A DNA stretch of 64,000 nt, taken from contig NC_135263.1 in NCBI RefSeq assembly GCF_964204865.1, forward strand, positions 994,501 through 1,058,500, written 5' to 3'. Each line of letters opens with the position of its first letter. The first letter of the stretch is position 1. The notes under the pieces are model-generated. The model ran no database searches. It was not told the DNA's origin and saw nothing but the letters and a program-made list of their open reading frames with translations. The translations under genes and the position numbers were made by a program. The DNA is from Styela clava (lineage: Eukaryota; Chordata; Ascidiacea; Stolidobranchia; Styelidae). This document shows positions 11,061-53,119 of this stretch, one piece after another.

Positions 11061-12430
11061 ATATACTTGCTTAATAAACTACTTCTCCTAAACGTACTCA
11101 TTGTAATAATTTGTAATTGCTGATAAATTATTTTGGATAGGCTATCAAGCGTTTTGTCAAGTATATCACCAACTGTTATTATTTTTGCTTTGACCCAACT
11201 TAATTTTGCAGTGAGTTCAATTTTATTCCTATCTAAGATTGATGGATTGTGCCAATCAATTTCCTGTGATATTTCCCATAGTTTTGTGGTTGATTCCATT
11301 CTAAGCTAACTTGTTTGAATGAATTAATAATACTGGTATAAAATTTTGGAATATTGATATTAGTTTCCAATTTAAAATTCAAATGTAAACATTCTGAATT
11401 ACCTTTTGACAACACTTTAAAATACCTATTCACATAAAATTTTGCTCTTTTAGCCCAAGAACTCATATCCGGCAGAAGCAATTTGCGATGCCTTAATTTG
11501 CTTCCTAACGTTTATCATTTTTATACCCCCTTCATTTTGTTCACTACAACCGATATTCCTACTGATCATTTGCGCTTTTTCATTCTAAATAAATTTCCAA
11601 ATATTTACTTCCAATTTCTGAATATATTTTTCTGTCTTAAATTTAAAACTGACCATGTACCATAATTTTGATTGTAGCAGGGGTTTTAGCTATAAGAACT
11701 CTTCCAACAATAGTTAGATTCCGCCCTTTCAAAAGATTTACAACTTTTTGTATTTTTGCCAATTAATGTAATTTAATGTCCTCACGTTTTACAGTTATAC
11801 CATTCTACGGCCAACTTCGAGCAGTTCCACATATAAGCATTGTACATTTGTTTTTATTTATTTTAAGACCAGTGCCACGTTGAAATAATCCGAATAATTT
11901 TAACACTGAATCTACAGATGACAATGATTCAAGGGTCAGTGTTATGTCATCTGCAAATCCTTTATAAACTTCTCTCTGATTTATGCAGTTCTTAAATCCA
12001 GTTATTTCTTTGTCGCTTTTGATATTTGATGATATCAATTCTGAAATGAATTAATATAACAATGGAGAACGGGGCCGCCCTGCCTCACACCTCTGCATCC
12101 AAATTTTTTCTGTCAAATATCCATTCACATTTATTTTTGAAGAAGCATTTTTATATGAAGTAATTATCCAATTTATGAGGTTTTTCCCAATCCAGATTTT
12201 TTTATTAATACTAGTATATTTCTGTCTGTCATATCATATGTTTTTGTTGATCTATTGATAAAACAATTAATGGTGAATTTTCCTTGTTTGCCCAAAATAT
12301 GTTGTCTCTAATAGAGATAAGATTTTCGTGAATTGATCTCCCTGGAACAAAGGCAGTTTGGTTAATGTCGATTATGTCTGGTAATATACTTTATATTCTG
12401 TTTGCAATTATTGGACACGTTTAGTGGACA
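11061..12430 (-). pseudogene. Decayed L1/Tx1-like LINE reverse transcriptase
   Basis: Read right to left, conceptual translation gives the order expected of a non-LTR reverse transcriptase: DINQTAFVPGRSIHENL with a following IRDNI near 12.3-12.4 kb, an RCEAGRPRSPLLY-like block near 12.08 kb, and the catalytic-site region GFADDITLTL near 11.94 kb (FADD in place of YADD). LKINKNKC follows, then an FYTSIINSF-type thumb/connection block near 11.33 kb. Several frameshifts and stops separate these blocks, so it is dead. The 5' part is missing. The 3' side directly joins the truncated 5S unit 45, without a visible poly(A) tail. Confidence 0.88.
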
Positions 12431-18044: not shown

Positions 18045-19785
18045 AACCCGAGCGCCCGGAATAAGAACCTCTACCCTTGAAATAAAACAGAAATAAGGAC
18101 ACATGTAAAAAGAGGATTTTATTGATTGATATAAAAAAGATTTATACACTCTACACAATACAATTTGATTCGATGGGTACAAAATTTTAAAATTATGTGT
18201 AATCCATTGCTGAAAAAAGCCTATTTCGCCTATATCGTCATAGGTGAAAAATCGTAAATTTATGCACTTTTCAAACATTACTCACATGTCTTTCCGCCCA
18301 GGAGGGGCGAGATTTTATTGATTGATATAAAAAAAATTTATACACTCTACACAATACAATTTGAGTCGATGGGTACAAAATTTTAAAATTATGTGTAATC
18401 CATTGCTGAAAAAAGCCTATTTCGCCTATATCGTCATAGGTGAAAAATCGTAAATTTATGCACTTTTCAAACATTACTCACATGTCTTTCCGCCCAAGAG
18501 GGGCGAGATTTTATTGATTGATATAAAAAAGATTCATACACTCTACACAATACAATTTGAGTCGATGGGTACAAAATTTTAAAATTATGTGTAATCCATT
18601 GCTGAAAAAAGCCTATTTCGCCTATATCGTCATAGGTGAAAAATCGTAAATTTATGCACTTTTCAAACATTACTCACATGTCTTTCCGCCCAAGAGGGGC
18701 GAGATTTTATTGATTGATATAAAAAAGATTCATACACTCTACACAATACAATTTGAGTCGATGGGCACAAAAATTTAAAATTATGTGTAATCCATTGCTG
18801 AAAAAAGCCTATTTCGCCTATATCGTCATAGGGGAAAAATCGTAAATTCATGCACTTTTCAAACATTACTCACATGTCTTTCCGCCCAAGAGGGGCGAGA
18901 TTTTATTGATTGATATAAAAAAGATTCATACACTCTACACAATACAATTTGAGTCGATGGGTACAAAATTTTAAAATTATGTGTAATCCATTGCTGAAAA
19001 AAACCTATTTCGCCTATATCGTCATAGGTGAAAAATCGTAAATTTATGCACTTTTCAAACATTACTCACATGTCTTTCCGCCCAAGAGGGGCGAGATTTT
19101 ATTGATTGATATAAAACAGATTTATACACTCTACACAATACAATTTGAGTCGATGGGTACAAAATTTTAAAATTATGTGTAATCCATTGCTGAAAAAAGC
19201 CTATTTCGCCTATATCGTCATAGGTGAAAAATCGTAAATTTATGCACTTTTCAAACATTACTCACATGTCTTTCCGCCCAAGAGGGGCGAGATTTTATTG
19301 ATTGATATAAAAAAGATTCATACACTCTACACAATACAATTTGAGTCGATGGGTACAAAATTTTAAAATTATGTGTAATCCATTGCTGAAAAAAGCCTAT
19401 TTCGCCTATATCGTCATAGGTGAAAAATCGTAAATTTATGCACTTTTCAAACATTACTCACATGTCTTTCCGCCCAAGAGGGGCGAGATTTTATTGATTG
19501 ATATAAAAAAGATTCATACACTCTACACATGACAATTTGAGTCGATGTGTACAAAATTTTAAAATTATGTGTAATCCATTGCTGAAAAAAACCTATTTCG
19601 CCTATATCGGCATAGGTGAAAAATCGTAAATTTATGCACTTTTCAAACATTACTCACATGTCTTTCCGCCCAAGTGGCACGAGATTTTATTGATTGATAT
19701 TGAAAAGATTCAAAAACTCTGCACAATACGATTTAAGTCGACGGTTACAAAATTTTAAAATCATTTATCATATATTGGAGGGTAA
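18045..19785 (-). repeat. 196-bp satellite block, about 9 units, minus orientation
   Basis: The unit repeats every 196 bp and is the reverse complement of that in the 26.35-32.25 kb block. Central units are nearly identical. The rightmost unit (about 19675-19785) and the left edge are diverged, as expected for satellite borders. Each unit has a 67-codon open frame on the minus strand that is a by-product of the repeat. Confidence 0.95.
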
Positions 19786-26349: not shown

Positions 26350-29300
26350 ACGTCGATCGAATGATATATGATATACGATTTTTCACCTATGCCGATATAT
26401 GCGAAACAGGCTTTTTCAGCAATGGATTACGCAAAATTTTAAAATTTTGTACCCATCGACTCAAGTTGTTTTGTGTAGACTTTTAGAACCTTATTAATAT
26501 CAAATAATAAAATCTCTTCCCACTTGGGCGGAAAGCGATGTGACTAACGTTTGAAAAGTGTATATATTTACGATTTTTGACCTAAGCCGATATTTGAGAA
26601 ATAGGCACTTTTCAGCAATGAATTACGCATAATTTTAATATTTTGTACTCATCGACTCAATTTGTTTTGTGTAGACTTTTAAAACCTTATTAATATCAAA
26701 TAATAAAATCTATCCCCACTTGGGCGGAAAGCGATGTGACTAACGTTTGAAAAGTGTATATAATTACGATTTTTGACCTATGCCGATATTTGAGAAATAG
26801 GCACTTTTCAGCAATGGATTACGCATAATTTTAAAACTTTGTACCCATCGACTCCAATTGTATTGTGTGGAGTGTATGAATCTTTTTTATATCAATCAAT
26901 AAAATCTCGCCCCTCTTGGGCGGAAAGACATGTGAGTAATGTTTGAAAAGTGCATAAATTTACGATTTTTCACCTATGACGATATAGGCGAAATAGGCTT
27001 TTTTCAGCAATGGATTACACATAATTTTAAAATTTTGTACCCATCGACTCAAATTGTATTGTGTAGAGTGTATGAATCTTTTTTATATCAATCAATAAAA
27101 TCTCGCCCCTCTTGGGCGGAAAGACATTTGAGTAATGTTTGAAAAGTGCATAAATTTACGATTTTTCACCTATGACGATATAGGCGAAATAGGCTTTTTT
27201 CAGCAATGGATTACACATAATTTTAAAATTTTGTACCCATCGACTCAAATTGTATTGTGTAGAGTGTATGAATCTTTTTTATATCAATCAATAAAATCTC
27301 GCCCCTCTTGGGCGGAAAGACATGTGAGTAATGTTTGAAAAGTGCATAAATTTACGATTTTTCACCTATGACGATATAGGCGAAATAGGCTTTTTTCAGC
27401 AATGGATTACACATAATTTTAAAATTTTGTACCCATCGACTCAAATTGTATTGTGTAGAGTGTATGAATCTTTTTTATATCAATCAATAAAATCTCGCCC
27501 CTCTTGGGCGGAAAGACATGTGAGTAACGTTTGAAAATTGCATAAATTTACGATTTTTCACCTATGACGATATAGGCGAAATAGGCTTTTTTCAGCAATG
27601 GATTACACATAATTTTAAAATTTTGTACCCATCGACTCAAATTGTATTGTGTAGAGTGTATGAATCTTTTTTATATCAATCAATAAAATCTCGCCCCTCT
27701 TGGGCGGAAAGACATGTGAGTAATGTTTGAAAAGTGCATAAATTTACGATTTTTCACCTATGACGATATAGGCGAAATAGGCTTTTTTCAGCAATGGATT
27801 ACACATAATTTTAAAATTTTGTACCCATCGACTCAAATTGTATTGTGTAGAGTGTATGAATTTTTTTTATATCAATCAATAAAATCTCGCCCCTCTTGGG
27901 CGGAAAGACATGTGAGTAATGTTTGAAAAGTGCATAAATTTACGATTTTTCACCTATGACGATATAGGCGAAATAGGCTTTTTTCAGCAATGGATTACAC
28001 ATAATTTTAAAATTTTGTACCCATCGACTCAAATTGTATTGTGTAGAGTGTATGAATCTTTTTTATATCAATCAATAAAATCTCGCCCCTCTTGGGCGGA
28101 AAGACATTTGAGTAATGTTTGAAAAAGGCATAAATTTACGATTTTCCACCTATGACGATTTAGGCGAAATAGGCTTTTTTCAGCAATGGATTACACATAA
28201 TTTTAAAATTTTGTACCCATCGACTCAAATTGTATTGTGTAGAGTGTATGAATCTTTTTTATATCAATCAATAAAATCTCGCCCCTCTTGGGCGGAAAGA
28301 CATGTGAGTAATGTTTGAAAAGTGCATAAATTTACGATTTTTCACCTATGACGATATAGGCGAAATAGGCTTTTTTCAGCAATGGATTACACATAATTTT
28401 AAAATTTTGTACCCATCGACTCAAATTGTATTGTGTAGAGTGTAGGAATCTTTTTTATATCAATCAATAAAATCTCGCCCCTCTTGGGCGGAAAGACATG
28501 TGAGTAATGTTTGAAAAGTGCATAAATTTACGATTTTTCACCTATGACGATATAGGCGAAATAGGCTTTTTTCAGCAATGGATTACACATAATTTTAAAA
28601 TTTTGTACCCATCGACTCATATTGTATTGTGTAGAGTGTATGAATCTTTTTTATATCAATCAATAAAATCTCGCCCCTCTTGGGCGGAAAGACATGTGAG
28701 TAATGTTTGAAAAGTGCATAAATTTACGATTTTTCACCTATGACGATATAGGCGAAATAGGCTTTTTTCAGCAATGGATTACACATAATTTAAAAATTTT
28801 GTATCCATCGACTCAAATTGTATTGTGTAGAGTGTATGAATCTTTTTTATATCAATCAATAAAATCTCGCCCCTCTTGGGCGGAAAGACATGTGAGTAAT
28901 GTTTGAAAAGTGCATAAATTTACGATTTCTCACCTATGACGATATAGGCGAAATAGGCTTTTTTCAGCAATGGATTACACATAATTTTAAAATTTTGTAC
29001 CCATCGACTCAAATCGTATTGCGTAGAGTGTATGAATCTTTTTTATATCAATCAATAAAATCTCGCCCCTCTTGGGCGGAAAGACATGTGAGTAATGTTT
29101 GAAAAGTGCATAAATTTACGATTTTTCCCTATGACGATATAGGCGAAATAGGCTTTTTTCAGCAATGGATTACACATAATTTTAAAATTTTGTACCCATC
29201 GACTCAAATTGTATTGTGTAGAGTGTATGAATCTTTTTTATATCAATCAATGAAATCTCGCCCCTCTTGGGCGGAAAGACATGTGAGTAATGTTTGAAAA

Positions 29301-32245
29301 GTGCATAAATTTACGATTTTTCACCTATGACGATATAGGCGAAATAGGCTTTTTTCAGCAATGGATTACACATAATTTTAAAATTTTGTACCCATCGACT
29401 CAAATTGTATTGTGTAGAGTGTATGAATCTTTTTTATATCATTCAATAAAATCTCGCCCCTCTTGGGCGGAAAGACATGTGAGTAATGTTTGAAAAGTGC
29501 ATAAATTTATGATTTTTCACCTATGACGATATAGGCGAAATAGGCTTTTTTCAGCAATGGATTACACATAATTTTAAAATTTTGTACCCATCGACTCAAT
29601 TTGTATTGTGTAGAGTGTATGAATCTTTTTTATATCAATCAATAAAATCTCGCCCCTCTTGGGCGGAAAGACATGTGAGTAATGTTTGAAAAGTGCATAA
29701 ATTTACGATTTTTCACCTATGACGATATAGGCGAAATAGGCTTTTTTCAGCAATGGATTACACATAATTTTAAAATTTTGTACCCATCGACTCAAATTGT
29801 ATTGTGTAGAGTGTATGAATCTTTTTTATATCAATCAATAAAATCTCGCCCCTCTTGGGCGGAAAGACATGTGAGTAATGTTAGAAAAGTGCATAAATTT
29901 ACGATTTTCCACCTATGACGATATAGGCGAAATAGGCTTTTTTCAGCAATGGATTACACATAATTTTAAAATTTTGTACCCATCGACTCAAATTGTATTG
30001 TGTAGAGTGTATGAATCTTTTTTATATCAATCAATAAAATCTCGCCCCTCTTGGGCGGAAAGACATGTGAGTAACGTTTGAAAATTGCATAAATTTACGA
30101 TTTTTCACCTATGACGATATAGGCGAAGTAGGCTTTTTTCAGCAATGGATTACACATAATTTTAAAATTTTGTACCCATCGACTCAAATTGTATTGTGTA
30201 GAGTGTATGAATCTTTTTTATATCAATCAATAAAATCTCGCCCCTCTTGGGCGGAAAGACATGTGAGTAATGTTTGAAAAGTGCATAAATTTACGATTTT
30301 TCACCTATGACGATATAGGCGAAATAGGCTTTTTTCAGCAATGGGTTACACATAATTTTAAAATTTTGTACCCATCGACTCAAATTGTATTGTGTAGAGT
30401 GTATAAATCTTTTTTATATCAATAAATAAAATCTCGCCCCTCTTGGGCGGAAAGACATGTGAGTAATGTTTGAAAAGTGCATAAATTTACGATTTTTCAC
30501 CTATGACGATATAGGCGAAATAGGCTTTTTTCAGCAATGGATTACACATAATTTTAAAGTTTTGTACCCATCGACTCAATTTGTATTGTGTAGAGTGTAT
30601 GAATCTTTTTTATATCAATCAATAAAATCTCGCCCCTCTTGGGCGGAAAGACATGTGAGTAATGTTTGAAAAGTGCATAAATTTACGATTTTTCACCTAT
30701 GACGATATAGGCGAAATAGGCTTTTTTCAGCAATGGATTACACATAATTTTAAAATTTTGTACCCATCGACTCAAATTGTATTGTGTAGAGTGTATGAAT
30801 CTTTTTTATATCAATCAATAAAATCTCGCCCCTCTTGGGCGGAAAGACATGTGAGTAATGTTTGAAAAGTGCATAAATTTACGATTTTCCACCTATGACG
30901 ATATAGGCGAAATAGGCTTTTTTCAGCAATGGATTACACATAATTTTAAAATTTTGTACCCATCGACTCAAATTGTATTGTGTAGAGTGTATGAATCTTT
31001 TTTATATCAATCAATAAAATCTCGCCCCTCTTGGGCGGAAAGACATGTGAGTAACGTTTGAAAATTGCATAAATTTACGATTTTTCACCTATGACGATAT
31101 AGGCGAAGTAGGCTTTTTTCAGCAATGGATTACACATAATTTTAAAATTTTGTACCCATCGACTCAAATTGTATTGTGTAGAGTGTATGAATCTTTTTTA
31201 TATCAATCAATAAAATCTCGCCCCTCTTGGGCGGAAAGACATGTGAGTAACGTTTGAAAATTGCATAAATTTACGATTTTCCACCTATGACGATATAGGC
31301 GAAATAGGCTTTTTTCAGCAATGGATTACACATAATTTTAAAATTTTGTACCCATCGACTCAAATTGTATTGTGTAGAGTGTATGAATCTTTTTTATATC
31401 AATCAATAAAATCTCGCCCCTCTTGGGCGGAAAGACATGTGAGTAATGTTTGAAAAGTGCATAAATTTACGATTTTTCACCTATGACGATATAGGCGAAA
31501 TAGGCTTTTTTCAGCAATGGGTTACACATAATTTTAAAATTTTGTACCCATCGACTCAAATTGTATTGTGTAGAGTGTATGAATCTTTTTTATATCAATC
31601 AATAAAATCTCGCCCCTCTTGGGCGGAAAGACATGTGAGTAATGTTTGAAAAGTGCATAAATTTACGATTTTTCACCTATGACGATATAGGCGAAATAGG
31701 CTTTTTTCAGCAATGGATTACACATAATTTTAAAATTTTGTACCCATCGACTCAAATTGTATTGTGTAGAGTGTATGAATCTTTTTTATATCAATCAATA
31801 AAATCTCGCCCCTCTTGGGCGGAAAGACATGTGAGTAACGTTTGAAAAGTGCATAAATTTACGATTTTTCACCTATGACGATATAGGCGAAATAGGCTTT
31901 TTTTAGCAATGGGTTACACATAATTTTAAAATTTTGTACCCATCGACTCAAATTGTATTGTGTAGAGTGTATGAATCTTTTTTATATCAATCAATAAAAT
32001 CTCGCCCCTCTTGGGCGGAAAGACATGTGAGTAATGTTTGAAAAGTGCATAAATTTACGATTTTTCACCTATGACGATATAGGCGAAATAGGCTTTTTTC
32101 AGCAATGGATTACACATAATTTTAAAATTTTGTACCCATCGACTCAAATTGTATTGTGTAGAGTGTATGAATTTTTTTTTATATCAATCAATAAAATCTC
32201 GCCCCTCTTGGGCGGAAAGACATGTGACTAATGTTTGAAAAGTGT
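26350..32245 (+). repeat. 196-bp satellite block, about 30 units, plus orientation
   Basis: Units repeat at 196 bp with few differences; one unit is 195 bp. The first two to three units (26350-26930) are clearly diverged and central ones nearly identical. Each unit has an AT-rich body, a CCTAT-N6-ATAGG inverted repeat, a short AATTTTAAAATT palindrome, an AATAAA and a GC hairpin CGCCCCTCTTGGGCG. A 67-codon open frame spans each unit and overlaps the next by 8 nt (ATGTTTGA). I do not recognise the family. Confidence 0.95.
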
Positions 32246-32575
32246 ATGGTTTACGATATTTACTTTCAAAGTAATTAGTCGTGCTGCATTTTTTTGTTTA
32301 AAACTCATATTTATAAGCTGTTGTTTGATGATTCGCACTTTACATTTTTCTGGCACGCACTATTGTTCCAATTTACAGAAATAACGTATATAACTTTATT
32401 TTTGTATTTTTATATTCATTCGCTTCCTAATTGCGTATGGGAATTTAGTCCCGCCTCCGATTCTGATATGATATTTGAACTTTTCGCTTGGTTGCATACA
32501 AAGGTCACCGTGAGAGTCACTTCACAGTGGTGTCGTTGTTGTGTTGCATTGTTAATTAAATTTAGGCTGCGTACC
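32246..32575. other. No recognised feature
   Basis: Unique-looking sequence between the satellite and the LINE. The open frames across it (for example 32294-32602) match nothing known. Confidence 0.4.
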
Positions 32576-32591
32576 GGTATTAACTTTGGTC

Positions 32592-33186
32592 GAAAGACTT
32601 GACCACTAATCAAATTTATAGGATTTTACAAAGTAAGAAAAATGATACATATTTGAAAAACCATAAGGAATACATATTTAATAAATTTCACCTAACTAAG
32701 GCAATTAATTGGAATAAAATATGGAAAATAAATATTGGAAACAAGTATAAAGAGTTATGCTGGAAGTTAATTCATAATGGGTTGCCCACTGGAGACAAAA
32801 TAAAACACTGGTTCATTGATGAACCAGGAATGTGTGTCTTATGTGAAAATAATGTTGAAGAAACTGTGTGTCATTTATTTTTAGAATGTGACTGGTCTAG
32901 TGATTTTTGGCAATGGTGTTGCATAGATATTAGTCAAAATACTATTATAGCAAACGATTCGGAATGCAAATCAAAATTAATCACAATATTATGCGGAAAA
33001 TCAACAATTTGGGAATATCGAAATTCAGTAAAATATGATGAAATAGATAAAATGAAAAGTAGTATGCGTTCAATTTTCAAGTGTAAACTGGTAGGGATTT
33101 TAAATTTACTAAAAGCAAGCGAAAGAAATGAATTATTGTTATATGAGCACATGGATGATCTTTTACATAGGTCAATCATGATGTAA
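32592..33186 (+). pseudogene. LINE ORF2 C-terminus with zinc-binding motif, copy 1
   Basis: The open frame of about 197 codons ends at 33186. Its middle reads CWKLIHNGLPTGDKI, MCVLCENN, ETVCHLFLECDWSSDFWQW, which is the zf-RVT zinc-binding module (CxxC ... HxxxxC) found at the end of many non-LTR reverse transcriptases. The endonuclease and reverse transcriptase domains are lost to 5' truncation, so the frame is a remnant although still open. Confidence 0.85.
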
Positions 33187-33747
33187 GTTTATATGCAACA
33201 CCATACTCTGAAAATTATTGAAAGTATGTTATCTGTACATCATTTTCATAAGAGGAAGATGTATCGACTATGAAACATAGATGGCGAATGGGAAAAACCC
33301 AATATGAAAGCGTGGATTTTTCCATATTCTCTGTCTAATTTTTGTATTCTTGTATTTTTCATGCTAACTAAAAAATTAAAATAAAAACTGATTACCTGTA
33401 AATTAAAATTATATTCAACTAACTGCTGAGTGGATTACATGTGGATTAACTCAACTTTTTATATTGGATGTATATCCAATATTTGGACATATATTGGATT
33501 ATATTAAATTAATGACATCATGGTAATGGTATGAATTTTGTCTTTATTTTGATTTTTACTATTCATATGTATTGGGGGGAATGGGATTAAATTAAAAAAT
33601 GATAAACAAAAACATGGAAACAAAAAAAAAATATCTATTTATATATTTATAATAAAATGATTTGATACCAAAATATTAATACGAAAATTCCGTTTGGCAT
33701 TGGAATTTATTTGGCACAAAAAAAATGAAAAAAATAAAAAAAAAAAA
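32592..33747 (+). mobile_element. 5'-truncated LINE with 16-bp target duplication, copy 1
   Basis: Flanked by GGTATTAACTTTGGTC at 32576-32591 and 33748-33763. It ends in an A-rich tail (AAAAAATGAAAAAAATAAAA type), the signature of target-primed reverse transcription, and is heavily truncated at its 5' end. Confidence 0.92.
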
Positions 33748-33904
33748 GGTATTAACTTTGGTCTCCTCTAGCAGGCATGCAATTTTTCAATTTTCAGGAT
33801 TGAATAGGTACCGGTACCGGTATGCTTACGTATGCAGATAATACGGTCAGACGGTAGTTTATTGGGTATAGTTTAGTACCGGTCCAGTCTGGATTTCATG
33901 GCCT

Positions 33905-34500
33905 TTTTGAACGAGAAATCGGGCGTGCAATCAGAAATTCCCGCGTGCAAATAAGAATTCCTGGCGTGCAATTATAGCTCACGACGTGCAAAACAACTGT
34001 GCAAGAATTCCTGGCGTGCAATTATAGCTCACGACGTGCAAAACAACTGTGCACTCGCGTGCAACTGACTTTGACATCAGATACCTCTCAATACATCCGC
34101 GTAAAATTACCGGTATCGGATAAAAAATACGTTGAATCAGAGAAAAAATGGATGTTTGACCTTTGACCCCAAACATTATTTCTACAGTTTGTCGCTACCT
34201 TTGAGAGTGTTTGTGCGACTTTGGATACCGGTACTGTTCAGTACATCCGCGTAAAATTATTGGATAAAAAATACGTTGAACCAGAGCAAAATAGACATAC
34301 TTTGTCATTAATTTTGGTAGTGTTTTTACGTAGAATTAATGGATAAAAAATACGTCAAATTAGAGCAAAATGGACGTTTGACCTTTGACCCCAAACATTA
34401 TTTTCATACTTTGTCACTAATTTTGGGAGTGTTTGAGCAACTTTAGATACCGGTACTGTTCAGTACATTCGTGTAAAATTATTGTATGAAAAATACGCTG
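33905..34500 (+). repeat. Short tandem repeats after the LINE
   Basis: A 48-bp unit beginning GAATTCCTGGCGTGCAATTA occurs in tandem near 33955 and 34004. It is followed by three to four looser copies of a unit of about 125 bp with ATCCGCGTAAAATTA, AAAAATACGTTGAA and TTTGACCTTTGACC. An identical set lies at 36839-37434. Confidence 0.7.
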
Positions 34501-34509
34501 AATCAGAGC

Positions 34510-34873: not shown

Positions 34874-35525
34874 CCATCGACTCAAATTGTATTGTGTAGA
34901 GTGTATGAATCTTTTTTATATCAATCAATAAAATCTCGCCCCTCTTGGGCGGAAAGACATGTGAGTAATGTTTGAAAAGTGCATAAATTTACGATTTTTC
35001 ACCTATGACGATATAGGCGAAATAGGCTTTTTTCAGCAATGGATTACACATAATTTTAAAATTTTGTACCCATCGACTCAAATTGTATTGTGTAGAGTGT
35101 ATGAATTTTTTTTTATATCAATCAATAAAATCTCGCCCCTCTTGGGCGGAAAGACATGTGACTAATGTTTGAAAAGTGTATGGTTTACGATATTTACTTT
35201 CAAAGTAATTAGTCGTGCTGCATTTTTTTGTTTAAAACTCATATTTATAAGCTGTTGTTTGATGATTCGCACTTTACATTTTTCTGGCACGCACTATTGT
35301 TCCAATTTACAGAAATAACGTATATAACTTTATTTTTGTATTTTTATATTCATTCGCTTCCTAATTGCGTATGGGAATTTAGTCCCGCCTCCGATTCTGA
35401 TATGATATTTGAACTTTTCGCTTGGTTGCATACAAAGGTCACCGTGAGAGTCACTTCACAGTGGTGTCGTTGTTGTGTTGCATTGTTAATTAAATTTAGG
35501 CTGCGTACCGGTATTAACTTTGGTC

Positions 35526-36120
35526 GAAAGACTTGACCACTAATCAAATTTATAGGATTTTACAAAGTAAGAAAAATGATACATATTTGAAAAACCATAA
35601 GGAATACATATTTAATAAATTTCACCTAACTAAGGCAATTAATTGGAATAAAATATGGAAAATAAATATTGGAAACAAGTATAAAGAGTTATGCTGGAAG
35701 TTAATTCATAATGGGTTGCCCACTGGAGACAAAATAAAACACTGGTTCATTGATGAACCAGGAATGTGTGTCTTATGTGAAAATAATGTTGAAGAAACTG
35801 TGTGTCATTTATTTTTAGAATGTGACTGGTCTAGTGATTTTTGGCAATGGTGTTGCATAGATATTAGTCAAAATACTATTATAGCAAACGATTCGGAATG
35901 CAAATCAAAATTAATCACAATATTATGCGGAAAATCAACAATTTGGGAATATCGAAATTCAGTAAAATATGATGAAATAGATAAAATGAAAAGTAGTATG
36001 CGTTCAATTTTCAAGTGTAAACTGGTAGGGATTTTAAATTTACTAAAAGCAAGCGAAAGAAATGAATTATTGTTATATGAGCACATGGATGATCTTTTAC
36101 ATAGGTCAATCATGATGTAA
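35526..36120 (+). pseudogene. LINE ORF2 C-terminus, copy 2
   Basis: The predicted peptide is identical to that of copy 1, with the same zf-RVT zinc-binding module. Confidence 0.85.
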
Positions 36121-36681
36121 GTTTATATGCAACACCATACTCTGAAAATTATTGAAAGTATGTTATCTGTACATCATTTTCATAAGAGGAAGATGTATCG
36201 ACTATGAAACATAGATGGCGAATGGGAAAAACCCAATATGAAAGCGTGGATTTTTCCATATTCTCTGTCTAATTTTTGTATTCTTGTATTTTTCATGCTA
36301 ACTAAAAAATTAAAATAAAAACTGATTACCTGTAAATTAAAATTATATTCAACTAACTGCTGAGTGGATTACATGTGGATTAACTCAACTTTTTATATTG
36401 GATGTATATCCAATATTTGGACATATATTGGATTATATTAAATTAATGACATCATGGTAATGGTATGAATTTTGTCTTTATTTTGATTTTTACTATTCAT
36501 ATGTATTGGGGGGAATGGGATTAAATTAAAAAATGATAAACAAAAACATGGAAACAAAAAAAAAATATCTATTTATATATTTATAATAAAATGATTTGAT
36601 ACCAAAATATTAATACGAAAATTCCGTTTGGCATTGGAATTTATTTGGCACAAAAAAAATGAAAAAAATAAAAAAAAAAAA
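35526..36681 (+). mobile_element. 5'-truncated LINE, copy 2 (by segmental duplication)
   Basis: Same insertion as copy 1, not an independent event: both its 16-bp target repeats (35510-35525 and 36682-36697) and its flanks are duplicated with it. Confidence 0.92.
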
Positions 36682-37443
36682 GGTATTAACTTTGGTCTCC
36701 TCTAGCAGGCATGCAATTTTTCAATTTTCAGGATTGAATAGGTACCGGTACCGGTATGCTTACGTATGCAGATAATACGGTCAGACGGTAGTTTATTGGG
36801 TATAGTTTAGTACCGGTCCAGTCTGGATTTCATGGCCTTTTTGAACGAGAAATCGGGCGTGCAATCAGAAATTCCCGCGTGCAAATAAGAATTCCTGGCG
36901 TGCAATTATAGCTCACGACGTGCAAAACAACTGTGCAAGAATTCCTGGCGTGCAATTATAGCTCACGACGTGCAAAACAACTGTGCACTCGCGTGCAACT
37001 GACTTTGACATCAGATACCTCTCAATACATCCGCGTAAAATTACCGGTATCGGATAAAAAATACGTTGAATCAGAGAAAAAATGGATGTTTGACCTTTGA
37101 CCCCAAACATTATTTCTACAGTTTGTCGCTACCTTTGAGAGTGTTTGTGCGACTTTGGATACCGGTACTGTTCAGTACATCCGCGTAAAATTATTGGATA
37201 AAAAATACGTTGAACCAGAGCAAAATAGACATACTTTGTCATTAATTTTGGTAGTGTTTTTACGTAGAATTAATGGATAAAAAATACGTCAAATTAGAGC
37301 AAAATGGACGTTTGACCTTTGACCCCAAACATTATTTTCATACTTTGTCACTAATTTTGGGAGTGTTTGAGCAACTTTAGATACCGGTACTGTTCAGTAC
37401 ATTCGTGTAAAATTATTGTATGAAAAATACGCTGAATCAGAGC

Positions 37444-42530: not shown

Positions 42531-42668
42531 TTGTATGAAGTGGAAAAGACTAAAAGTTTTATGGTTATCAGTCATCACGGTAAAATACCTGTTATAGGTT
42601 CCATAAGATGCAAATTTAACCTAAAGATTGTTTTCTATTTTTCAGAATCTAATCTTAAAAATGTAATA

Positions 42669-43190
42669 ATGCTAGCTTTGGTGATATTTCGTATTCTCAA
42701 TTTCATTGCTGCAAGTTTCTTTATTTTGTCAGCATTTGTACAATACAATGATCCAGATCCTGAGCTATGGATACCAGTATATCTGGCTCCTGCTATCATT
42801 TCTGGATTAATTGGTTTCAAGCCCTCATTATCTGAATCAAAATTCATAAAAGTATTTGACTTTGGATATATTTTCTTTGGAACTATTTTATCTGCGTATT
42901 TGTTGCATCAAAACTATCAGGATAATTTCATCCACTGGGTGGTGCATGATGAAGTGGGGAGGGAGTTTGGTGGACTTGTGATCGTTATATTTTGGATTAT
43001 TTTTATGCACGAAACATCACATTTATCTGTGAAGAATTGGTTATCGTCGGTTTTTATTTGGACTCCGATTGCAATGTGGATCTATGTTTATAACAATCAG
43101 GAATATCGTGAACTTTGGCCTCAACATTGCCAGACTGCTCTTTATCCAGAAAAGACAGATAATAGTTATTCACAGGAAAAGCAAAGATGA
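42669..43190 (+). CDS. TMEM220: TMEM220-like membrane protein
   Basis: The product of 173 residues resembles vertebrate transmembrane protein 220 (about 160 aa). Shared signatures are VQYNDPDPELW after the first membrane segment, HDEVGREFGGLVIV before the fourth, and YNNQEYRELWPQHC near the C-terminus. Five hydrophobic stretches are visible at about residues 4-25, 33-50, 62-80, 99-115 and 125-145. I chose the ATG at 42669 because it is followed directly by the conserved first segment, and because TTTTTCTATTTTTCAG at about 42630-42645 looks like a splice acceptor. The longer frame from 42531 would translate intron. An ATGTAA mini-frame at 42661 precedes the start. The whole coding region lies in one exon, whereas the human gene has several, so intron loss or an old retrocopy is possible. 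The molecular function is not well established. Confidence 0.88.
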   Translation: MLALVIFRILNFIAASFFILSAFVQYNDPDPELWIPVYLAPAIISGLIGFKPSLSESKFIKVFDFGYIFFGTILSAYLLHQNYQDNFIHWVVHDEVGREFGGLVIVIFWIIFMHETSHLSVKNWLSSVFIWTPIAMWIYVYNNQEYRELWPQHCQTALYPEKTDNSYSQEKQR

Positions 43191-44298
43191 TAAGACAACT
43201 TGACCATATTTTGTTATAAGTAAATTTTTTCTAAGCAAGATCATGCACACCAAGTCTAAAGCAAAAAAAGTGGTCTCTAAATAAGTTACGGGCGGCCACT
43301 GAAGGGTCAAGAGCTGTTGACATAGTAATGAATTATATTGATTAAATTATGTTTTAGTAAATACCGAATGGCATAAGGCCTGAAGAAGCTCAGGTCAATA
43401 TGACTAGGAAAACAGCTAATAATTGGAGTGTACTGATGCCGACAGGTTACCATGAATCTGTCATTACTACCGGTATGTCAGTATGTCCCTAACCTGCATG
43501 GGTCCGAAATGCCTGTTCTTAAATGTCAGTAAACCTTTCTGAAGCATTTTTTTCGAATTTTTCACTGCTTGATTGTCAATGTTCCCTCTGTTTATGATAA
43601 AAAGTAAGGTTTGAGTTTGGGAGTAATCAGGTTTTTACATTTTATTCTGAATACCTATGTCAAATTCTATATGGCTATTTATAACTGTTTTATTCCTGTT
43701 ATATTTAGCTTTGAATTACAGAGTGATTAGTTATTAATATACGGTATGTAAAATGCCTCTTCAAATTAAAGTGAAGACTAATGGACATGCAATTAGGATT
43801 TTACAAGACCTGAATAGGTGAGTGTGAAGCAGGGATTTCCAAAACTATGTATTCGATATATCAAGTTTTAATTCCAGGAATAAATTATTCAGAATTGTCA
43901 TTTACTTGATTTGATATATGATGGTAAAACCTATTATTATTGCAAAAATAGGGTTTATTTGTAAAATGTTTCATGAGGTATTTTAATTGTCATATTTAAT
44001 AATAAAAAGCCAAGAAACGAGAGCAAAATAAATGCATCACAGCCAAAGAATTAAACAAATTACAGTCACTTTATTTTATGAGGACTTTGCTTGTGGCACC
44101 TGACCCTTTCGAAGGAAGCGAGGTCTCAGTTTAGGACCAGTTCTAAACCATTCTGCATTACCGCCTAACGTTTACTAAATTCAATTTCTATAAATCAATC
44201 ATATATGAAAATTTCTCTGCCTAATGGACTGCCATGCATAATTTTGTTCATTTGATTTACATTTTTATGAATTTTTCTACTTATTCTTCGCAAACAAG
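43191..44298. other. Downstream of TMEM220, non-coding
   Basis: 3' flank of the gene, matched at 49162-50352 in copy 2. No further gene seen. Confidence 0.5.
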
Positions 44299-44306
44299 GT
44301 CTTGAC

Positions 44307-44747
44307 CAGGGGTCTGTCAAACTCACGGCCCTCTAATGCAATAATTGTAATATTTTGTAAGTTTTTTTTTGTTATCTAAATGTAATACATTTTTCAAACC
44401 TTTTAAAGTGAAATTTATTATTCACACAGAAATTGACAATTTACAGAAAGTAGTTTTGTATTTTTGTAAATTTTAAGTCTATATATTAAAAATTTACGAT
44501 TTTTTGTAATGAATACAGTAAAATGCAAGAAATTAATGTTTAAATGGCATTTGAAATTTAAGGAAATAATAAAACTTCATTCGGCTGTTCAATTATATTA
44601 CAATATGTGTCACAAACGACACCTATCTAAAAATATTCTTGAAGAACATTTTATCAAAATATAGCAAAAACTGTTTGCGGCCCTTGGCACAATTCCCAAA
44701 ATGCAATGCGGCCCTTGACGCAAAACCCAAGAGTTTGACACCCCTTG
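44307..44747. mobile_element. hAT MITE (CAGGGGTCTGTCAAACTC family), copy 1
   Basis: It begins CAGGGGTCTGTCAAACTC and ends GAGTTTGACACCCCTTG. Flanking GTCTTGAC (44299-44306) and GTCTAGAC (44747-44754) match at 7 of 8 bases, with one base shared with the end. Non-coding, with short A/T-rich frames. Confidence 0.85.
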
Positions 44748-45690
44748 TCTAGACAGCAGCCACTGATACACAAGGAGCTATTATGTTTTTGTCAAGCTTA
44801 CTCTAGTTTGGAATATGTATTATCTTGTATAGACTAACACATCCTGGGTCAAGTGGTGGGTGTGAGGTTTTATCTGAATCCAGTGTTCACTATAAGAATA
44901 TTATGACTGTATGCATTCCTCACAAGCTAAAAAACAAACTGCAAAAATTTAAAAAAAACTCTGGTTTCTGGTGTTCACTCTAAGAAAATTATGAGTGTGT
45001 TTGTTCCTCAGAAGCCAGGAAATAAACTTTGAAATTTCAAGAAAGCTCTGGTTTGTAGTGTTCACTCTAAGAAAATTATAATTACTTCCATGCCTCGCAA
45101 GCTGAAAAATAAACTTAAAATTCTGGTTCATTTAAGAAAACTCTGATTTCTGGTGTTCACGAGTATATACCAGGGTTTTCCAAACAAATGGAATCGAATA
45201 TAGCAAAAACTGTTTCAAAATGCAATGCGTCCCTTGGTGCAAATCCCACGAGTTTGACACCCCTTGTTTAGATAGCGGCCACTGATACACAAGGAGCTAT
45301 TATGTTTTTGTCAAACTCACTTTAGTTTGGAATATGTATTATCTTATATAGACTAACACATCCTGGGTTAAGTGGCGGGTGTGAGGTTTTATCTGAATCC
45401 AGTGTTCACTATAAGAATATTATGACTGTATGCATTCCTCACAAGCTAAAAAACAAACTGCAAAAATTTAAAAAAAACTCTGGTTTCTGGTGTTCACTCT
45501 AAGAAAATTATGAGTGTGTTTGTTCCTCAGAAGCCAGGAAATAAACTTTGAAATTTCAAGAAAGCTCTGGTTTGTAGTGTTCACTCTAAGAAAATTATAA
45601 TTACTTCCATGCCTCGCAAGCTGAAAAATAAACTCCAAATTCTGGTTCATTTAAGAAAACTCTGATTTCTGGTGTTCACGAGTATATACC
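44660..45690. repeat. 519-bp internal tandem repeat with sub-repeats of about 85 bp
   Basis: The block around GTGTTCACTCTAAGAAAATT repeats at an offset of 519 bp (44949 versus 45468). Inside it, units of about 85 bp share TTCACT, AAGAAAATTAT, CCTC and AATAAACT blocks. Copy 2 of the large duplication has only one block (50880-51293). Similar sub-repeats occur near 55640-55710. Confidence 0.8.
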
Positions 45691-45856
45691 AGGGTTGTCC
45701 AAAATGAATCGAATATCAAAGCGCTGCGACTAAGTTATTGTACGCCCTGGCATGATTGGATAAAGAATCAGCTACCGATGTCTAGATAATATTTAATTTT
45801 GATTGAAATTTAATTTAAACTTCGTTCAGAATGCAATATTTCGCGTACATTTCAAG

Positions 45857-47368
45857 TAGGAATGGGCAATGTAGAATAATTTACTATTCTAGAATAGTTT
45901 CATCGAATCCAGAATACCGAATCCTATTCTATTTTTATATTTATTCAAATAGTGGGAGTTTTCCACATTGCTAGATTTAGATGTTCAAAAATTGTAAATG
46001 TATTACCATAAATGTGTTATTTATTTGGAAATATCCTTAACATTGGATTTTATTTGATACTAAACAGGCATTTCCCAGGACATTAAAATCTAAGAATATT
46101 TTAATATTTTTGCTTGTATGTCATCTCTAAATACTGATATGAAAATGCTAAATTAAGATGCGCGTTACACACTTTGATAGTAAGCGGTTAAATATAAAAA
46201 TAGATAAGAAACGGCATTAAATCATTATTAATGTTGCCGAGTGTACTAAAACACACCCGCTGAGAATTAATTAGATGCAGGTCCAGCGTATGTCCACTGC
46301 AACCTATGCAGCCATGGTAAAGTTACCGTAAACGCCGATTTCTTAGTTAGTCATAAGGTAATAACATCTGAAGACTAATTCATTTTCTATTATTGTCGTT
46401 AAATATCATTATCTACCCAGACTTGGCCCTACTCACACTCAATACTCAACTATCTTCGCCAGATGCGGCATCATTTTTTAAATTTATCCGCGACTAAAAT
46501 ATTACAGACACTCGATCAAACGTGCGTCTATCTTGAACGATAGAAACGGACCGAAAGATATGTAATATTTTGAGGGTGAAATTTAAATGCGACAGATTGT
46601 CGTGTTTTGCGATATAACTTTGTATTTCGGAAACTGGAGTAATAAAAGTAAATTAATCGCAAGTGATGTCATAACATTTCACGCCTGGCTTTTGGTTTAC
46701 ATGCATCATTTTTTGGGGAAAACTCGCTGGTCGCCGAAAATCATTTACAGTAATGTAAAATGAAGCAAGGCACGCCTGTAAACAATTGAAGATTGTTGCA
46801 ATCAGATTATGGGAATATCGCCAATAAGTTGGCACAAATATAAACCCTAGCTAGATAGCAAAGCAGGAAAACGCAAAAATGGTGCGATAACGAGTCTTCG
46901 CCGTAAGGTGTACTTCACGACTTCTTGTCCAGAATACGCCGATTGAGATTACAGTGTTTGATGTTTACCGATTTTACGGGTTCTTTGCGATTCGGCAAGT
47001 TTAATTAGCCGAGAGAAATTTCCGCGCGAGAAAGAACTTTAAGAAGCTTGTCTTTAATTGATAATTAGAAACCCGAAATACAAAAATTGACCCACGGCGA
47101 AAACGCAAAAAAAAAACGCAAAAATGGTGCAATGACAAGTCTTCGCCGTGAGGTGTACTTCACCGACTTCTTGTCCAGAATACACCGATTGAGATTACAG
47201 TGTTTGAAGTTTACCGATTATACAGGTTCCTTCCGAGCAGACGCAAGTCTAATTAAACGAGAGAGATTTCCACGCGAGAAAAAACGCTCGTCTTCAATTG
47301 ATAATTAGAAACCCGAAATGCAAAAATTGATGCATGGTGCTGGAGAGGCGGAAACTGAATCCTGTTAT
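45857..47368. mobile_element. TIR element cut by the duplication joint
   Basis: Same element as 51458-52986 but lacking its last 40 or so bases, because TMEM220 copy 2 begins here. It includes a tandem pair of about 235 bp (AAAATGGTGC, TCTTCGCCGTAAGGTGTAC) at 46877 and 47121. Confidence 0.8.
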
Positions 47369-47879
47369 GGTGATATTTCGTATTCTCAATTTCAATGCTG
47401 CAAGTTTCTTTATTTTGTCAGCATTTGTACAATACAATGACCCAGATCCTGAGCTATGGATACCAGTATATCTGGCTCCTGCTATCATTTCTGTATTAAT
47501 TGGTTTCAAGCCCTCATTGTCTGAATCAAAATTCATAAAAGTATTTGACTATGGATATATTTTCTTTGGAACTATTTTATCTGCGTATTTGTTGCATCAA
47601 AACTACCATGATAATTTCATCCACTGGGTAGTGCATGATGAAGTGGGGAGGGAGTTTGGTGGACTTGTAATCGTTATATTTTGGATTATTTTTATGCACG
47701 AAACATCACATTTATCTGTGAAGAATTGGTTATTGTCGGTTTTTATAAGGATTCCGATTGCAATGTGGATCTATGTTTATAACAATCAGGAATATCGTGA
47801 ACTTTGGCCTCAACATTGCCAGACTGCTCTTTATCCAGAAAAGACAGATAATAGTTATTCACAGGAAAAGCAAAGATGA
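47334..47879 (+). CDS. Truncated TMEM220 duplicate with a transposon-derived start
   Basis: From codon 5 onward this is TMEM220 copy 1 with about seven amino-acid changes, among them I/N in segment 1, ISG/ISV, DFG/DYG, YQD/YHD, LSS/LLS and WTP/RIP. The first three codons and everything upstream are replaced by the end of a TIR element. At the joint, AT from the element and G from the gene make an ATG (47367-47369) exactly in place of codon 4, giving 170 residues. An in-frame ATG at 47334 would add 11 residues encoded by transposon sequence. The original promoter and 5' exon are absent, so expression is uncertain. It may be a pseudogene that happens to remain open. Confidence 0.7.
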   Translation: MVLERRKLNPVMVIFRILNFNAASFFILSAFVQYNDPDPELWIPVYLAPAIISVLIGFKPSLSESKFIKVFDYGYIFFGTILSAYLLHQNYHDNFIHWVVHDEVGREFGGLVIVIFWIIFMHETSHLSVKNWLLSVFIRIPIAMWIYVYNNQEYRELWPQHCQTALYPEKTDNSYSQEKQR

Positions 47880-47907
47880 TAAGACAACTTGACCATATTT
47901 TGTTATA

Positions 47908-49159
47908 CCGTATATGATCGCGTATAGGCCGAGTTTAAAACTCAAAAAAAAAGTTGCCCAACTAAGGGACCGTCTTATGCGCGCATAACTCAGATAGCAC
48001 CAAAAAATCGGCTCCTTCGCGCATCGAGACTTTGATCACGCAACGAAATGATATAATGCTGACTTGCGGGTAATTGCAACAGCTACAGACCATGCTTAAT
48101 TCTCACGATAAAGAGCGTGCACGCACACACCACACACGCGATCGCTTGTCTAGGTGTGATTGTCTGATCATTAACGTGACCGCTTGTATTTGATTAAATT
48201 TAATTGTATCTTTTGCATAAGAGCAACAGCATTGATCTACCAGCCGTCTCGTGGTCAAAACGTTATCATTTGTGCACAAGTAAGAATCAGATAGAAGTTT
48301 CAGGTAGAATAATACTCACAGCATTAATTCTTAACAATAAAACTGTAATTTCAATCATTATGAACAACCATTTACGGTAACTGAAGAGTTGAAATAACAT
48401 ATGAATATGATGTGATAAATACTGTGCTGTACGTCCATGGGTTAGGCAACAGCTGTGTTTTCGGTTTTTTCCTGAATCAGCAAAACGGAAGGGTCATAAA
48501 TCAATCACTTTATTTCGTGGTAGCCGTTTTCTTTCTGAAGTGCCGTTATCGGGCAGGGAGTGCTTCATTGCACCGGCCACGTTTTTGTTTTTAGGATTAA
48601 AACAAATAACAGCTGGTATACAAAGTCAATTAAATAATCGGCAGACACTTTGGCATACATTATAAAATATATCAGCCCATATATGAAGCTCACACAAATC
48701 ATGTTTGAGAATACTTGCGAAAAATAACCAAATTTATTGCCGTGTCCGCTCAGGATATCTCGACTACCTTAATATAAATAATGATTGTAAAATATTTTCA
48801 ATCAAAAATGTCCTCATGTTATACGTTTGGTACTTCAAGTCGGCGCTGATTTGATTCCTTTCATGTTGGCAGTAATTTAGTTGTGCCGCAAAGTGCTGTC
48901 TTCCATTACGATAAAACAGAAAATATAATCGAAAATTGTTTTAATCAAAATGTGGACAGCAGCGCTATACAAGAAGGTAGCGAATCGCGATATTTGAATA
49001 TTAAATTTGAATTGAACATCATTGACTGTAATAGATGCGTGCGCGTGTTACGATTTGTGGAAACGGCGTATATGCGAATTTTTATAAATTCACTATTTCG
49101 AAGCTGTTATTAGGGAGTCGGCTTATCCGCGTGATAGGCGTATATTCGAGAAAATACGG
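47908..49159. mobile_element. Tc1/mariner-like element (1,252 bp)
   Basis: The left end is CCGTATATGATCGCGTATAG and the right end is the complement of CCGTATTTTCTCGAATATAC. The flanking TA is duplicated (47906-47907 and 49160-49161). Copy 1 at 43216-43218 has a single TA with no insertion, a direct empty site. No transposase frame is seen. The termini resemble those of the 341-bp MITE at 463-803. Confidence 0.9.
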
Positions 49160-50360
49160 TAAGTAAATTTTTTCTAAGCAAGATCATGCACACCAAGTCT
49201 AAAGCAAAAAAAGTGGTCTCTAAATAAGTTACGGGCGGCCACTGAAGGGTCAAGAGCTGTTGACATAGTAATGAATTATATTGATTAAATTATGTTTTAG
49301 TAAATACCGAATGGCATAAGGCCTGAAGAAGCTCAGGTCAATATGACTAGGAAAACAGCTAATAATTGGAGTGTACTGATGCCGACAGGTTACCATGAAT
49401 CTGTCATTACTACCGGTATGTCAGTATGTCCCTAACCTGCATGGGTCCGAAATGCCTGTTCTTAAATGTCAGTGAAGCATTTTTTTCGAATTTTTCACTG
49501 CTTGATTGTCAATGTTCCCTCTGTTTATGATAAAAAGTAAGATTTGAGTTTGAGAGAAATCAGGTTTTTACATTTTATTCTGAATACCTATGTCAAATTC
49601 TATATGGCTATTTATAACTGTTTTATTCCTGTTATATTTAGCTTTGAATTACAGAGTGATTAGTTATTAATATACGGTATGTAAAATGCCTCTTCAAATT
49701 AAAGTGAAGACTAATGGACATGCAATTAGGATTTTACAAGACCTGAATAGGTGAGTGTGAAGCAGGGATTTCCAAAACTATGCGGTTAAAGCGTTAGAAT
49801 TAACTAGGAATGGAATGGAGTCATAGTTTTTAGATACCAGAGGGGGCGGCTGCATGTGGAAAAAGGTATAAATAAGCGTCTCATAAAGAATATACCTTCA
49901 TTGTATTCGATATATCAAGTTTTAATTTCAGGAATAAATTATTCAGAATTGTCATTTACTTGATTTGATATATGATGGTAAAACCTATTATTATTGCAAA
50001 AATAGGGTTTATTTGTAAAATGTTTCATGAGTTATTTTAATTGTCATATTTAATAATAAAAAGCCAAGAAACGAGAGCAAAATAAATGCATCACAGCCAA
50101 AGAATTAAACAAATTACAGTCACTTTATTTTATGAGGACTTTGCTTGTGGCACCTGGCCCTTTCGAAGGAAGCGAGGTCTCAGTTTAGGACCAGTTCTAA
50201 ACCATTCTGCATTTCCGCCTAACGTTTACTAAATTCAATTTCTATAAATCAATCATATATGAAAATTTCTCTGCCTAATGGACTGCCATGCATAATTTTG
50301 TTCATTTGATTTACATTTTTATGAATTTTTCTACTTATTCTTCGCAAACAAGGTCTTGAC

Positions 50361-50866
50361 CAGGGGTCTGTCAAACTCACGGCCCTCTAATGCAATAATT
50401 GTAATATTTTGTAAGTTTTTTTTTGTTATCTAAATGTAATACATTTTTCAAACCTTTTAAAGTGAAATTTATTATTCACACAGAAATTGACAATTTACAG
50501 AAAGTAGTTTTGTATTTTCGTAAATTTTAAGTCTATATATTAAGGTTGAGTCAATTTTAGTATGTATTATTCTTTTCCTTTGTTTTGAAAAGTTGTATAT
50601 ATAAAAATTTACGATTTTTTGTAACGAATACAGTAAAATGCAAGAAATTAATGTTTAAATGGCATTTGAAATTTAAGAAAATAATAAAACTTCATTCGGC
50701 TGTTCAATTATATTACAATATGTGTCACAAACTACACCTATCTAAAAATATTCTTGAAGAACATTTTATCAAAGTATAGCTGTATAAAAACTGGTTGCGG
50801 CCCTTGGCACAATTCCCAAAATGCAATGCATCCCTTGGCGCAAAACCCACGAGTTTGACGCCCCTG
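50361..50866. mobile_element. hAT MITE (CAGGGGTCTGTCAAACTC family), copy 2
   Basis: Duplicated counterpart of 44307-44747, with a 60-bp extra stretch near 50545-50604. Flanks are GTCTTGAC and GTCTAGAT. Confidence 0.82.
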
Positions 50867-51457
50867 GTCTAGATAGCAGCCACTGATACACAAGGAGCTA
50901 TTATGTTTTTGTCAAGCTTACTTTAGTTTGGAATATGTATTATCTTATATAGACTAACACATCCTGGGTTCAGTGGCGGGTGTGAGGTTTTATCTGAATC
51001 CAGTGTTCACTATAAGAAAATTATGACTGTATGCATTCCTCACAAGCTAAAAAACAAGCTGCAAAAATTTAAAAAAAACTCTGGTTTCTGGTGTTCACTC
51101 TAAGAAAATTATGAGTGTGTTTGTTCCTCAGAAGCCAGGAAATAAACTTTGAAATTTCAAGAAAGCTCTGGTTTGTAGTGTTCACTCTAAGAAAATTATA
51201 ATTACTTCCATGCCTCGCAAGCTGAAAAATAAACTTAAAATTCTGGTTCATTTAAGAAAACTCTGATTTCTGGTGTTCACGAGTATATACCAGGGTTGTC
51301 CAAAATGAATCGAATATCAAAGCGCTGCGACTAAGTTATTGTACGCCCTGGCATGATTGGATAAAGAATCAGCTACCGATGTCTAGATAATATTTAATTT
51401 TGATTGAAATTTAATTTAAACTTTGTTCAGAATGCAATATTTCGCGTACATTTCAAG

Positions 51458-52986
51458 TAGGAATGGGCAATGTAGAATAATTTACTATTCTAGAATAGTT
51501 TCATCGAATCCAGAATACCGAATCCTATTCTATTTTTATATTTATTCAAATAGTGGGAGTTTTCCACATTGCTAGATTTAGATGTTCAAAAATTGTAAAT
51601 GTATTACCATAAATGTGTTATATATTTGGAAATATCCTTAACATTGGATTTTATTTGATACTAAACAGGCATTTCCCAGGACATTAAAATATTATTTTTG
51701 CTTGTATGTCATCTCTAAATACTGATATGAAAATGCTAAATTAAGATGCGCGTTACACACTTTGATAGTAAGCGGTTAAATATAAAAATAGATAAGAAAC
51801 GGCATTAAATCATTATTAATGTTGCCGAGTGTACTAAAACACACCCGCTGAGAATTAATTAGATGCAGGTCCAGCGTATGTCCACTGCAACCTATGCAGC
51901 CATGGTAAAGTTACCGTAAACGCCGATTTCTTAGTTAGTCATTAGGTAATAACATCTGAAGACTAATTCATTTTCTATTATTGTCGTTAAATATCATTAT
52001 CTACCCAGACTTGGCCCTACTCACACTCAATACTCAACTATCTTCGCCAGATGCGGCATCATTTTTTAAATTTATCCGCGACTAAAATATTACAGACACT
52101 CGATCAAACGTGCGTCTATCTTGAACGATAGAAACGGACCGAAAGATATGTAATATTTTGAGGGTGAAATTTAAATGCGACAGATCGTCTTGTTTTGCGA
52201 TATAACTTTGTATTTCGGAAACTGGAGTAATAAAAGAAAATTAATCGCAAGTGATGTCATAACATTTCACGCCTGGCTTTTGGTTTACATGCATCATTTT
52301 TTGGGGAAAACTCGCTGGTCGCCGAAAATCATTTACAGTAATGTAAAATGAAGCAAGGCACGCCTGTAAACAATTGAAGATTGTTGCAATCAGATTATCG
52401 GAATATCGCCAGTAAGTCGGCACAAATAATTATTATTATTAAAACCCTAGCTAGATAGCAAAGTAGGAAAACGAAAAAATGGTGCAATAACGAGTCTTTG
52501 CCGTAAGGTGTACTTCACGACTTCTTGTCCAGAATACGCCGATTGAGATTACAGTGTTTGATATTTACCGATTTTACGGGTTCTTTGCGATTCGGCAAGT
52601 TTAATTAGCCGAGAGAAATTTCCGCGCGAGAAAGAACGCTTGTCTTTAATGGATAATTAGAAACCCGAAATACAAAAATTGACCCACGGCGAAAACGCAA
52701 AAATGGTGCAATAACAAGTCTTCGCCGTGAGGTGTACTCCACCGACTTCTTGTCCAGAATACGCCGATTGAGATTGCAGTGTTTGAAGTTTACCGATTAT
52801 ACAGGTTCCTTCCGAGCAGACGCAAGTCTAATTAAACGAGAGAGATTTTCACGCGAGAAAAAACGCTCGTCTTTAATTGAAAATTAGAAACCCGAAATGC
52901 AAAAATTGATGCATGGTGCTGGAGAGGCGGAAACCGAATCCTGTTATCGAATCCTCTGGATTCGGTATTCTTTATTGCCCATCTCT
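51458..52986. mobile_element. TIR element with TAGGAATGGGCAAT ends (about 1.5 kb)
   Basis: The left end TAGGAATGGGCAATGTAGAAT pairs with the complement of TAGAGATGGGCAATAAAGAAT on the right, and ACCGAATCC motifs follow in both ends. It is probably hAT-like by its ends but I saw no target duplication. It includes the tandem pair of about 235 bp (around 52480 and 52700). No coding potential. Confidence 0.7.
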
Positions 52987-53119
52987 AGTCATAAATTATT
53001 TGAAGCGCTATCGCGGTAACGCCACTCGACTTTTAATAATCATCTTTACAGATATGTTATCTTTTTAGTGCCACTGATAAAGACTCTTATCTCTGTAAAG
53101 ATCTAAATATTCACATTAC

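Follow-up and report, generated by a model that had tools for sequence, protein, structure and literature searches.

The second of two tandem TMEM220 copies in the genome of Styela clava is probably a young partial duplicate that lost its 5' end and recruited transposon DNA in its place; it is most likely non-functional, with its reading frame still unbroken. The copies lie in a stretch of 64,000 nucleotides, referred to here as the window (contig positions 994501-1058500 of a 376.6-Mb genome). The tandem structure, its joint, the intact frame, a transposon insertion in unit 2 alone and the polarised substitutions were observed directly. In the history that we propose, a tandem duplication broke a hAT-like element internally, 40-72 bp short of its terminus, and fused it to TMEM220 codon 4, probably through end joining or through template switching at a 1-bp microhomology. 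The downstream copy lost codons 1-3, an acceptor-like site and all upstream sequence, and gained element sequence instead. That element happens to give two in-frame ATGs, one native and one formed at the joint. A transposon later inserted 28 bases past the stop of copy 2. The features concerned are listed in Table 1.

Table 1. Positions of the TMEM220 copies, the tandem units and the associated elements (window coordinates unless the contig is named)
Feature	Position	Strand	Remarks
Splice-acceptor-like TTTTCTATTTTTCAG	42631..42645	+	Putative acceptor function
TMEM220 copy 1	42669..43190	+	173 aa, single open exon; Pfam PF15071 79.7 bits
Tandem unit 1	42679..47367	+	First base ambiguous through 1-bp microhomology
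hAT-like non-autonomous element, unit 1	45857..47367	+	Right terminal repeat removed by joint
TMEM220 copy 2 reading frame	47334..47879	+	181 aa from element ATG, 170 aa from joint ATG
Element's own in-frame ATG	47334..47336	+	11 codons upstream of joint codon
Joint codon ATG	47367..47369	+	A from element, T ambiguous, G from gene codon 4
Tandem unit 2	47368..52947	+	
Second transposon in unit 2	47908..49159	+	TA target duplication, CCGTAT...ATACGG ends
hAT-like element, unit 2	51458..52987	+	Both ends present; shows end missing from unit 1
TMEM220 copy 3	contig 1089654-1090233	-	L003, L006, L008; about 48 kb beyond copy 2

A segment of about 4.7 kb (unit 1) occurs a second time directly downstream (unit 2) as a direct tandem repeat, and at the joint between them a transposon fragment is fused to TMEM220 codon 4 with the reading frame kept. 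The joint reads GTTA-T-GGTG, in which the T can be assigned to either side as a 1-bp microhomology. The joint codon is ATG in copy 2, compared with TTG (codon 4) in copies 1 and 3. Because the element in unit 2 extends beyond the corresponding point, 47367/47368 can be recognised as the junction that the duplication produced. The preliminary description of this DNA had a tandem duplication joining the end of a transposon to codon 4, with the A and T of the new ATG coming from the element and the G from the gene. The tandem structure, codon 4 and the ATG with its A and G were borne out. However, the T may come from either side, and a joint at the transposon's end was ruled out, as the joint lies inside the element and the terminus of the family is 40-72 bp further on. 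A retrocopy origin of copy 2 was likewise ruled out, since the duplicated unit carries 3' flank and noncoding sequence at the DNA level.

The position of the joint within the element was judged from a repeat family, of which 40 of 367 first-look candidates were scored and 18 other loci (L015-L032) were aligned. Past the joint position, all 18 loci run on to a common terminus, at a distance of 72 bp in 16 of them, 40 bp in L022 and 41 bp in L028; the distance in unit 2 is 40 bp. Both ends, TAGGGATGGGCAAT...ATTGCCCATCCCTA, are present in 15 of the 18 loci with a spacing of 1.64-1.70 kb, and a perfect 8-bp target duplication flanks 14 of these 15, L024 and L025 sharing their flanks. The target duplication of L028 matches at six of eight positions. 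The family thus has terminal inverted repeats and 8-bp target duplications, and we take the element to be hAT-like from its repeat ends and duplication length as compared with the features of hAT elements, rather than from a transposase match. The element in unit 2 lacks a matching 8-bp target duplication (ATTTCAAG at 51450-51457 and GTCATAAA at 52988-52995), and its two ends may therefore come from different insertions.

A TMEM220 profile search of the genome returned three matching stretches, all on the contig of the window. Copy 2 matches PF15071 with 78.2 bits over profile positions 1-99 of 100, nearly equal to the score of copy 1 and above the gathering cut-off of 27 bits, placing it in the family. 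Unlike the family, it has its first three residues replaced and carries changes of its own, including I13N and W131R. It has lost codons 1-3 entirely, together with one or two leading bases of codon 4. As had been described, this second copy lacks the first three codons, is open from 47334 (or 47367) to 47879, and shows several amino-acid changes without a stop; we counted seven differences from copy 1 beyond the joint codon. It contains neither a disabling stop nor a frameshift. The site TTTTCTATTTTTCAG ends at 42645, 23 bases ahead of the copy 1 ATG, and its counterpart is kept in copy 3 and absent from copy 2. What copy 2 is seen to have lost is thus this acceptor-like site, whereas the 5' exon and promoter that the preliminary description counted as lost are presumed features. 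The site would putatively be joined either to a 5' exon or to a trans-spliced leader, the two candidate partners.

Copy 3 is a pseudogene, with a frame shifted by a one-base insertion that rules it out as the functional parent. Its coding part shows 30 differences from that of copy 1 over 513 positions, and the blocks of the 3' flank are 81-83% identical. This older paralogue retains the arrangement of copy 1, and the direction of change was judged by it and not by an outgroup species.

The joint had been said to create an in-frame start codon. An ATG is indeed formed there, but one native to the element at 47334 already lies in frame upstream, and an ATG occurs at the equivalent place in 16 of 18 other family loci. 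The frame of copy 2 is open from 47331, so that its first ATG lies inside the element and the joint ATG, 11 codons later, is the second in frame. The joint ATG is therefore dispensable for a start. Two out-of-frame ATGs, at 47318 (40-codon frame) and 47330 (36-codon frame), overlap both in-frame ATGs, and ribosomes scanning from farther upstream would reach them first. G at both -3 and +4 makes a favourable start context. The joint ATG has this context; the element ATG shares the G at +4 but carries T at -3.

To estimate the chance of such a start, the same gene breakpoint was fused in turn to 127,200 upstream ends drawn from both strands of the window. The joint codon became ATG in 10.1% of these random joins, and an in-frame ATG ahead of any stop was present in 31.7%, indicating that the joint ATG is no more than chance readily yields. 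For 501 breakpoints within the element, 33 gave a joint ATG and 128 some in-frame ATG. At this breakpoint, roughly one joint in ten would thus make a start codon by accident, a rate that is a useful baseline for similar claims. An upstream ATG is no rarity, but it matters to copy 2, because without one the next methionine would be residue 113.

The 3' side of copy 2 has also been altered. An insertion of 1,252 bp begins 28 bases past its stop and comes between the coding sequence and the 3' flank seen in unit 1, where the empty site TTATAAGT is kept. Among the 43 other genome matches listed to this transposon, 34 are near full length (40 of 1,165 candidates were scored). The inserted transposon contains AATAAA/ATTAAA polyadenylation-like hexamers, and 3'-end formation in copy 2 need therefore not be lost.

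Beyond the joint codon, 13 positions distinguish copy 1 from copy 2. With copy 3 as the outgroup, five replacements (I13N, G46V, F65Y, Q84H, and W131R) and five silent changes were assigned to copy 2, and two replacements and one silent change to copy 1. S126 and T132 are derived states of copy 1, at which copy 2 keeps the older residues. The share of replacements on copy 2 (5 of 10) is below the neutral expectation (P = 0.035 with uniform mutation and 0.044 with the observed mutation types), and the two copies together give 7 of 13 (P = 0.032). With the joint codon counted as a replacement, the share becomes 6 of 11 (P = 0.054). If all ten changes on copy 2 were neutral and postdated the duplication, the probability of finding no stop among them would be 0.37, and that of finding neither a stop nor an indel, given the indel-to-substitution ratio of the units, about 0.10. 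The replacement share and the intact-frame figures point mildly to constraint on copy 2. NG86 dN/dS was 0.29 between copies 1 and 2; between copies 1 and 3 it was 0.21 in the part preceding the frameshift and 0.37 when the full length was taken. These values indicate that the TMEM220 family was under constraint. The comparison of dN/dS between the copies that the preliminary description had proposed is thus available, with replacements marginally few (P of about 0.04), although possible pre-duplication differences confound it.

The individual replacements were compared with bacterial homologues, which were matched in 40 of 296 genomes; of 30 loci taken, 3 had no aligned frame, leaving 27 rows, 1 of which (L058, E 0.28) is in the wrong frame. 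A scan of prokaryote contigs for relatives led to one locus. Position 13 holds a hydrophobic or small residue (V, I, L, F, A, or G) in all 27 rows, the wrong-frame row included. At position 46, V is found in 3 of the 27 rows, and position 65 is variable. The bacterial homologues stop short of positions 126-132, so W131R lies outside this comparison. I13N lowers the Kyte-Doolittle peak of the first hydrophobic segment from 2.38 to 1.74, which is still above 1.5, and W131 lies outside every segment above 1.5 in both copies. Damage to the copy 2 protein by I13N is suggested. At 47747-47748, two adjacent bases are changed from TT to AA in copy 2, giving a silent change at I130 together with W131R, perhaps as one multi-nucleotide mutation.

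The divergence between the units is uneven. By block, we found 13 differences in 540 positions of the coding sequence (CDS) and then 3 in 619, 5 in 642, 22 in 707, and 25 in 1610, corresponding to 2.4%, 0.5%, 0.8%, 3.1%, and 1.6% (chi-square P = 6e-4), in a comparison that omits the unit 1 repeat copy at about 45202-45716 and whose last block ends about 8 bases before the joint. That repeat copy belongs to a tandem repeat of about 515 bp in unit 1 (44697-45201 and 45216-45716), which is apparently single in unit 2. The CDS block stands apart from the two that follow it (8/1261 for these; P = 0.003), and the coding block can be seen to be more divergent than the following 1.26 kb when 42679-44489 is compared with 47368-50543. 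In the columns polarised with copy 3, the changes derived in copy 2 number 10 of 507 in the CDS versus 0 of 693 in noncoding sequence (P = 1.7e-4), and five changes in these 693 noncoding columns were assigned to unit 1. This unevenness could stem from allelic differences of older date, from gene conversion, or from a true acceleration, and the dN/dS between copies 1 and 2 is therefore no clean measure of selection after the duplication. There is a serious possibility, somewhat short of even, that the units come from different haplotypes through unequal exchange or were later affected by gene conversion, so that their differences include old allelic ones. The heterogeneity among blocks and the concentration of copy-2-derived changes in the CDS both agree with such an origin. 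However, the counts are small, the CDS block is ordinary when compared with all others pooled (13/540 versus 55/3578; P = 0.15), and the polarisation depends on one old paralogue that may itself have been subject to exchange. This explanation concerns the age of the changes and is compatible with a young truncated duplicate, about whose selection since the duplication dN/dS would then say little. Divergence of 0.5-3.1% by block is also allele-like, as expected if the assembly had placed two haplotypes end to end, but we consider such an artefact very unlikely. The break is clean inside the gene and inside the element, the window contains no N, and the two units carry different insertions. A false duplicate would also not be expected to start in the middle of codon 4.

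As for function, the preliminary description had offered two possibilities: that copy 2 is a gene regaining expression by way of transposon DNA, or that it is a pseudogene too young to have been broken. The tandem duplication, the 5' truncation and the transposon-derived start that it invoked are all present, but recapture now has to contend with the lost acceptor-like site and the upstream ATGs. It is unlikely that copy 2 is an expressed gene to which the element gives a promoter or cryptic acceptor together with a start codon. Its product would be a TMEM220 protein with the N-terminus MVLERRKLNPV or one beginning at the joint methionine. The open frame, the low share of replacements (P of about 0.04), the retained PF15071 score and the favourable context of the joint ATG are what such a gene would show, yet the acceptor-like site is lost, overlapping out-of-frame ATGs stand directly upstream, a transposon follows 28 bases after the stop, and I13N goes beyond the residues found at position 13 in the bacterial rows. 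A new expressed gene for which the element supplied both the transcription start and the start codon, with the contrast of 10/507 and 0/693 reflecting rapid post-duplication divergence and an altered N-terminus, is highly improbable. We favour a non-functional partial duplicate because of the loss of the acceptor-like site, the out-of-frame ATGs, the 3' transposon, the assignment of 10 of 13 substitutions to copy 2, the replacements I13N and W131R, the chance of about 10% for the ATG, and the probability of 0.37 for the lack of a stop, and we infer that copy 2 lacks both expression and function. This reading is weakened by the intact frame, the few replacements, the dN/dS of 0.29 and the PF15071 score, as well as by the moderate effect of I13N, the occurrence of V at position 46, the variability of position 65, the context of the joint ATG, and the hexamers supplied by the transposon.

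The fusion of a duplicate with a transposon is an ordinary kind of accident, and partial duplicates with recruitment are already a recognised class. In the parts of the published account used here, this class was applied to duplicates of Caenorhabditis elegans, in which the chimeric duplicates have novel exons from sources that include repetitive elements (PMC3449122). Copy 2 is like that class in missing part of the ancestral frame (codons 1-3 and part of codon 4) and in gaining unrelated sequence, which is in frame as 11 element codons if translation begins at 47334. It is unlike the class, as presented in those parts, in that the recruited piece is hAT-like and one candidate start, recognised at the sequence level only, is assembled at the joint. 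A study of Drosophila yakuba, in the portion consulted, gives a tally of putative recruitment events in which no start codon was inherited (PMC5460883). As in those cases, a gene fragment was joined to other sequence through tandem duplication in S. clava; however, the Drosophila cases described there kept the 5' part of the transcript and were tested by RNA-seq, whereas copy 2 keeps the 3' part and is known from DNA alone. Among the papers found in a search on transposon-supplied start codons, none looked pertinent from its title and the beginning of its abstract. As found, copy 2 is a well-resolved case of a known type of event. Should it prove to be expressed, it would illustrate cleanly how a piece of a gene can obtain a new start from transposon sequence in the very event that duplicated it.

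Elsewhere in the window, two directly repeated stretches, 31940-34509 and 34874-37443, are 100% identical over their 2,570 bp and include a 200-codon open frame that appears LINE-like by eye. The pair arose either by duplication in the very recent past or through an assembly error. Satellite arrays that repeat about every 195 bp occupy 2439-11067, 26371-32261, and 18115-19777, the last of which is an inverted relative of the array at 26371-32261.
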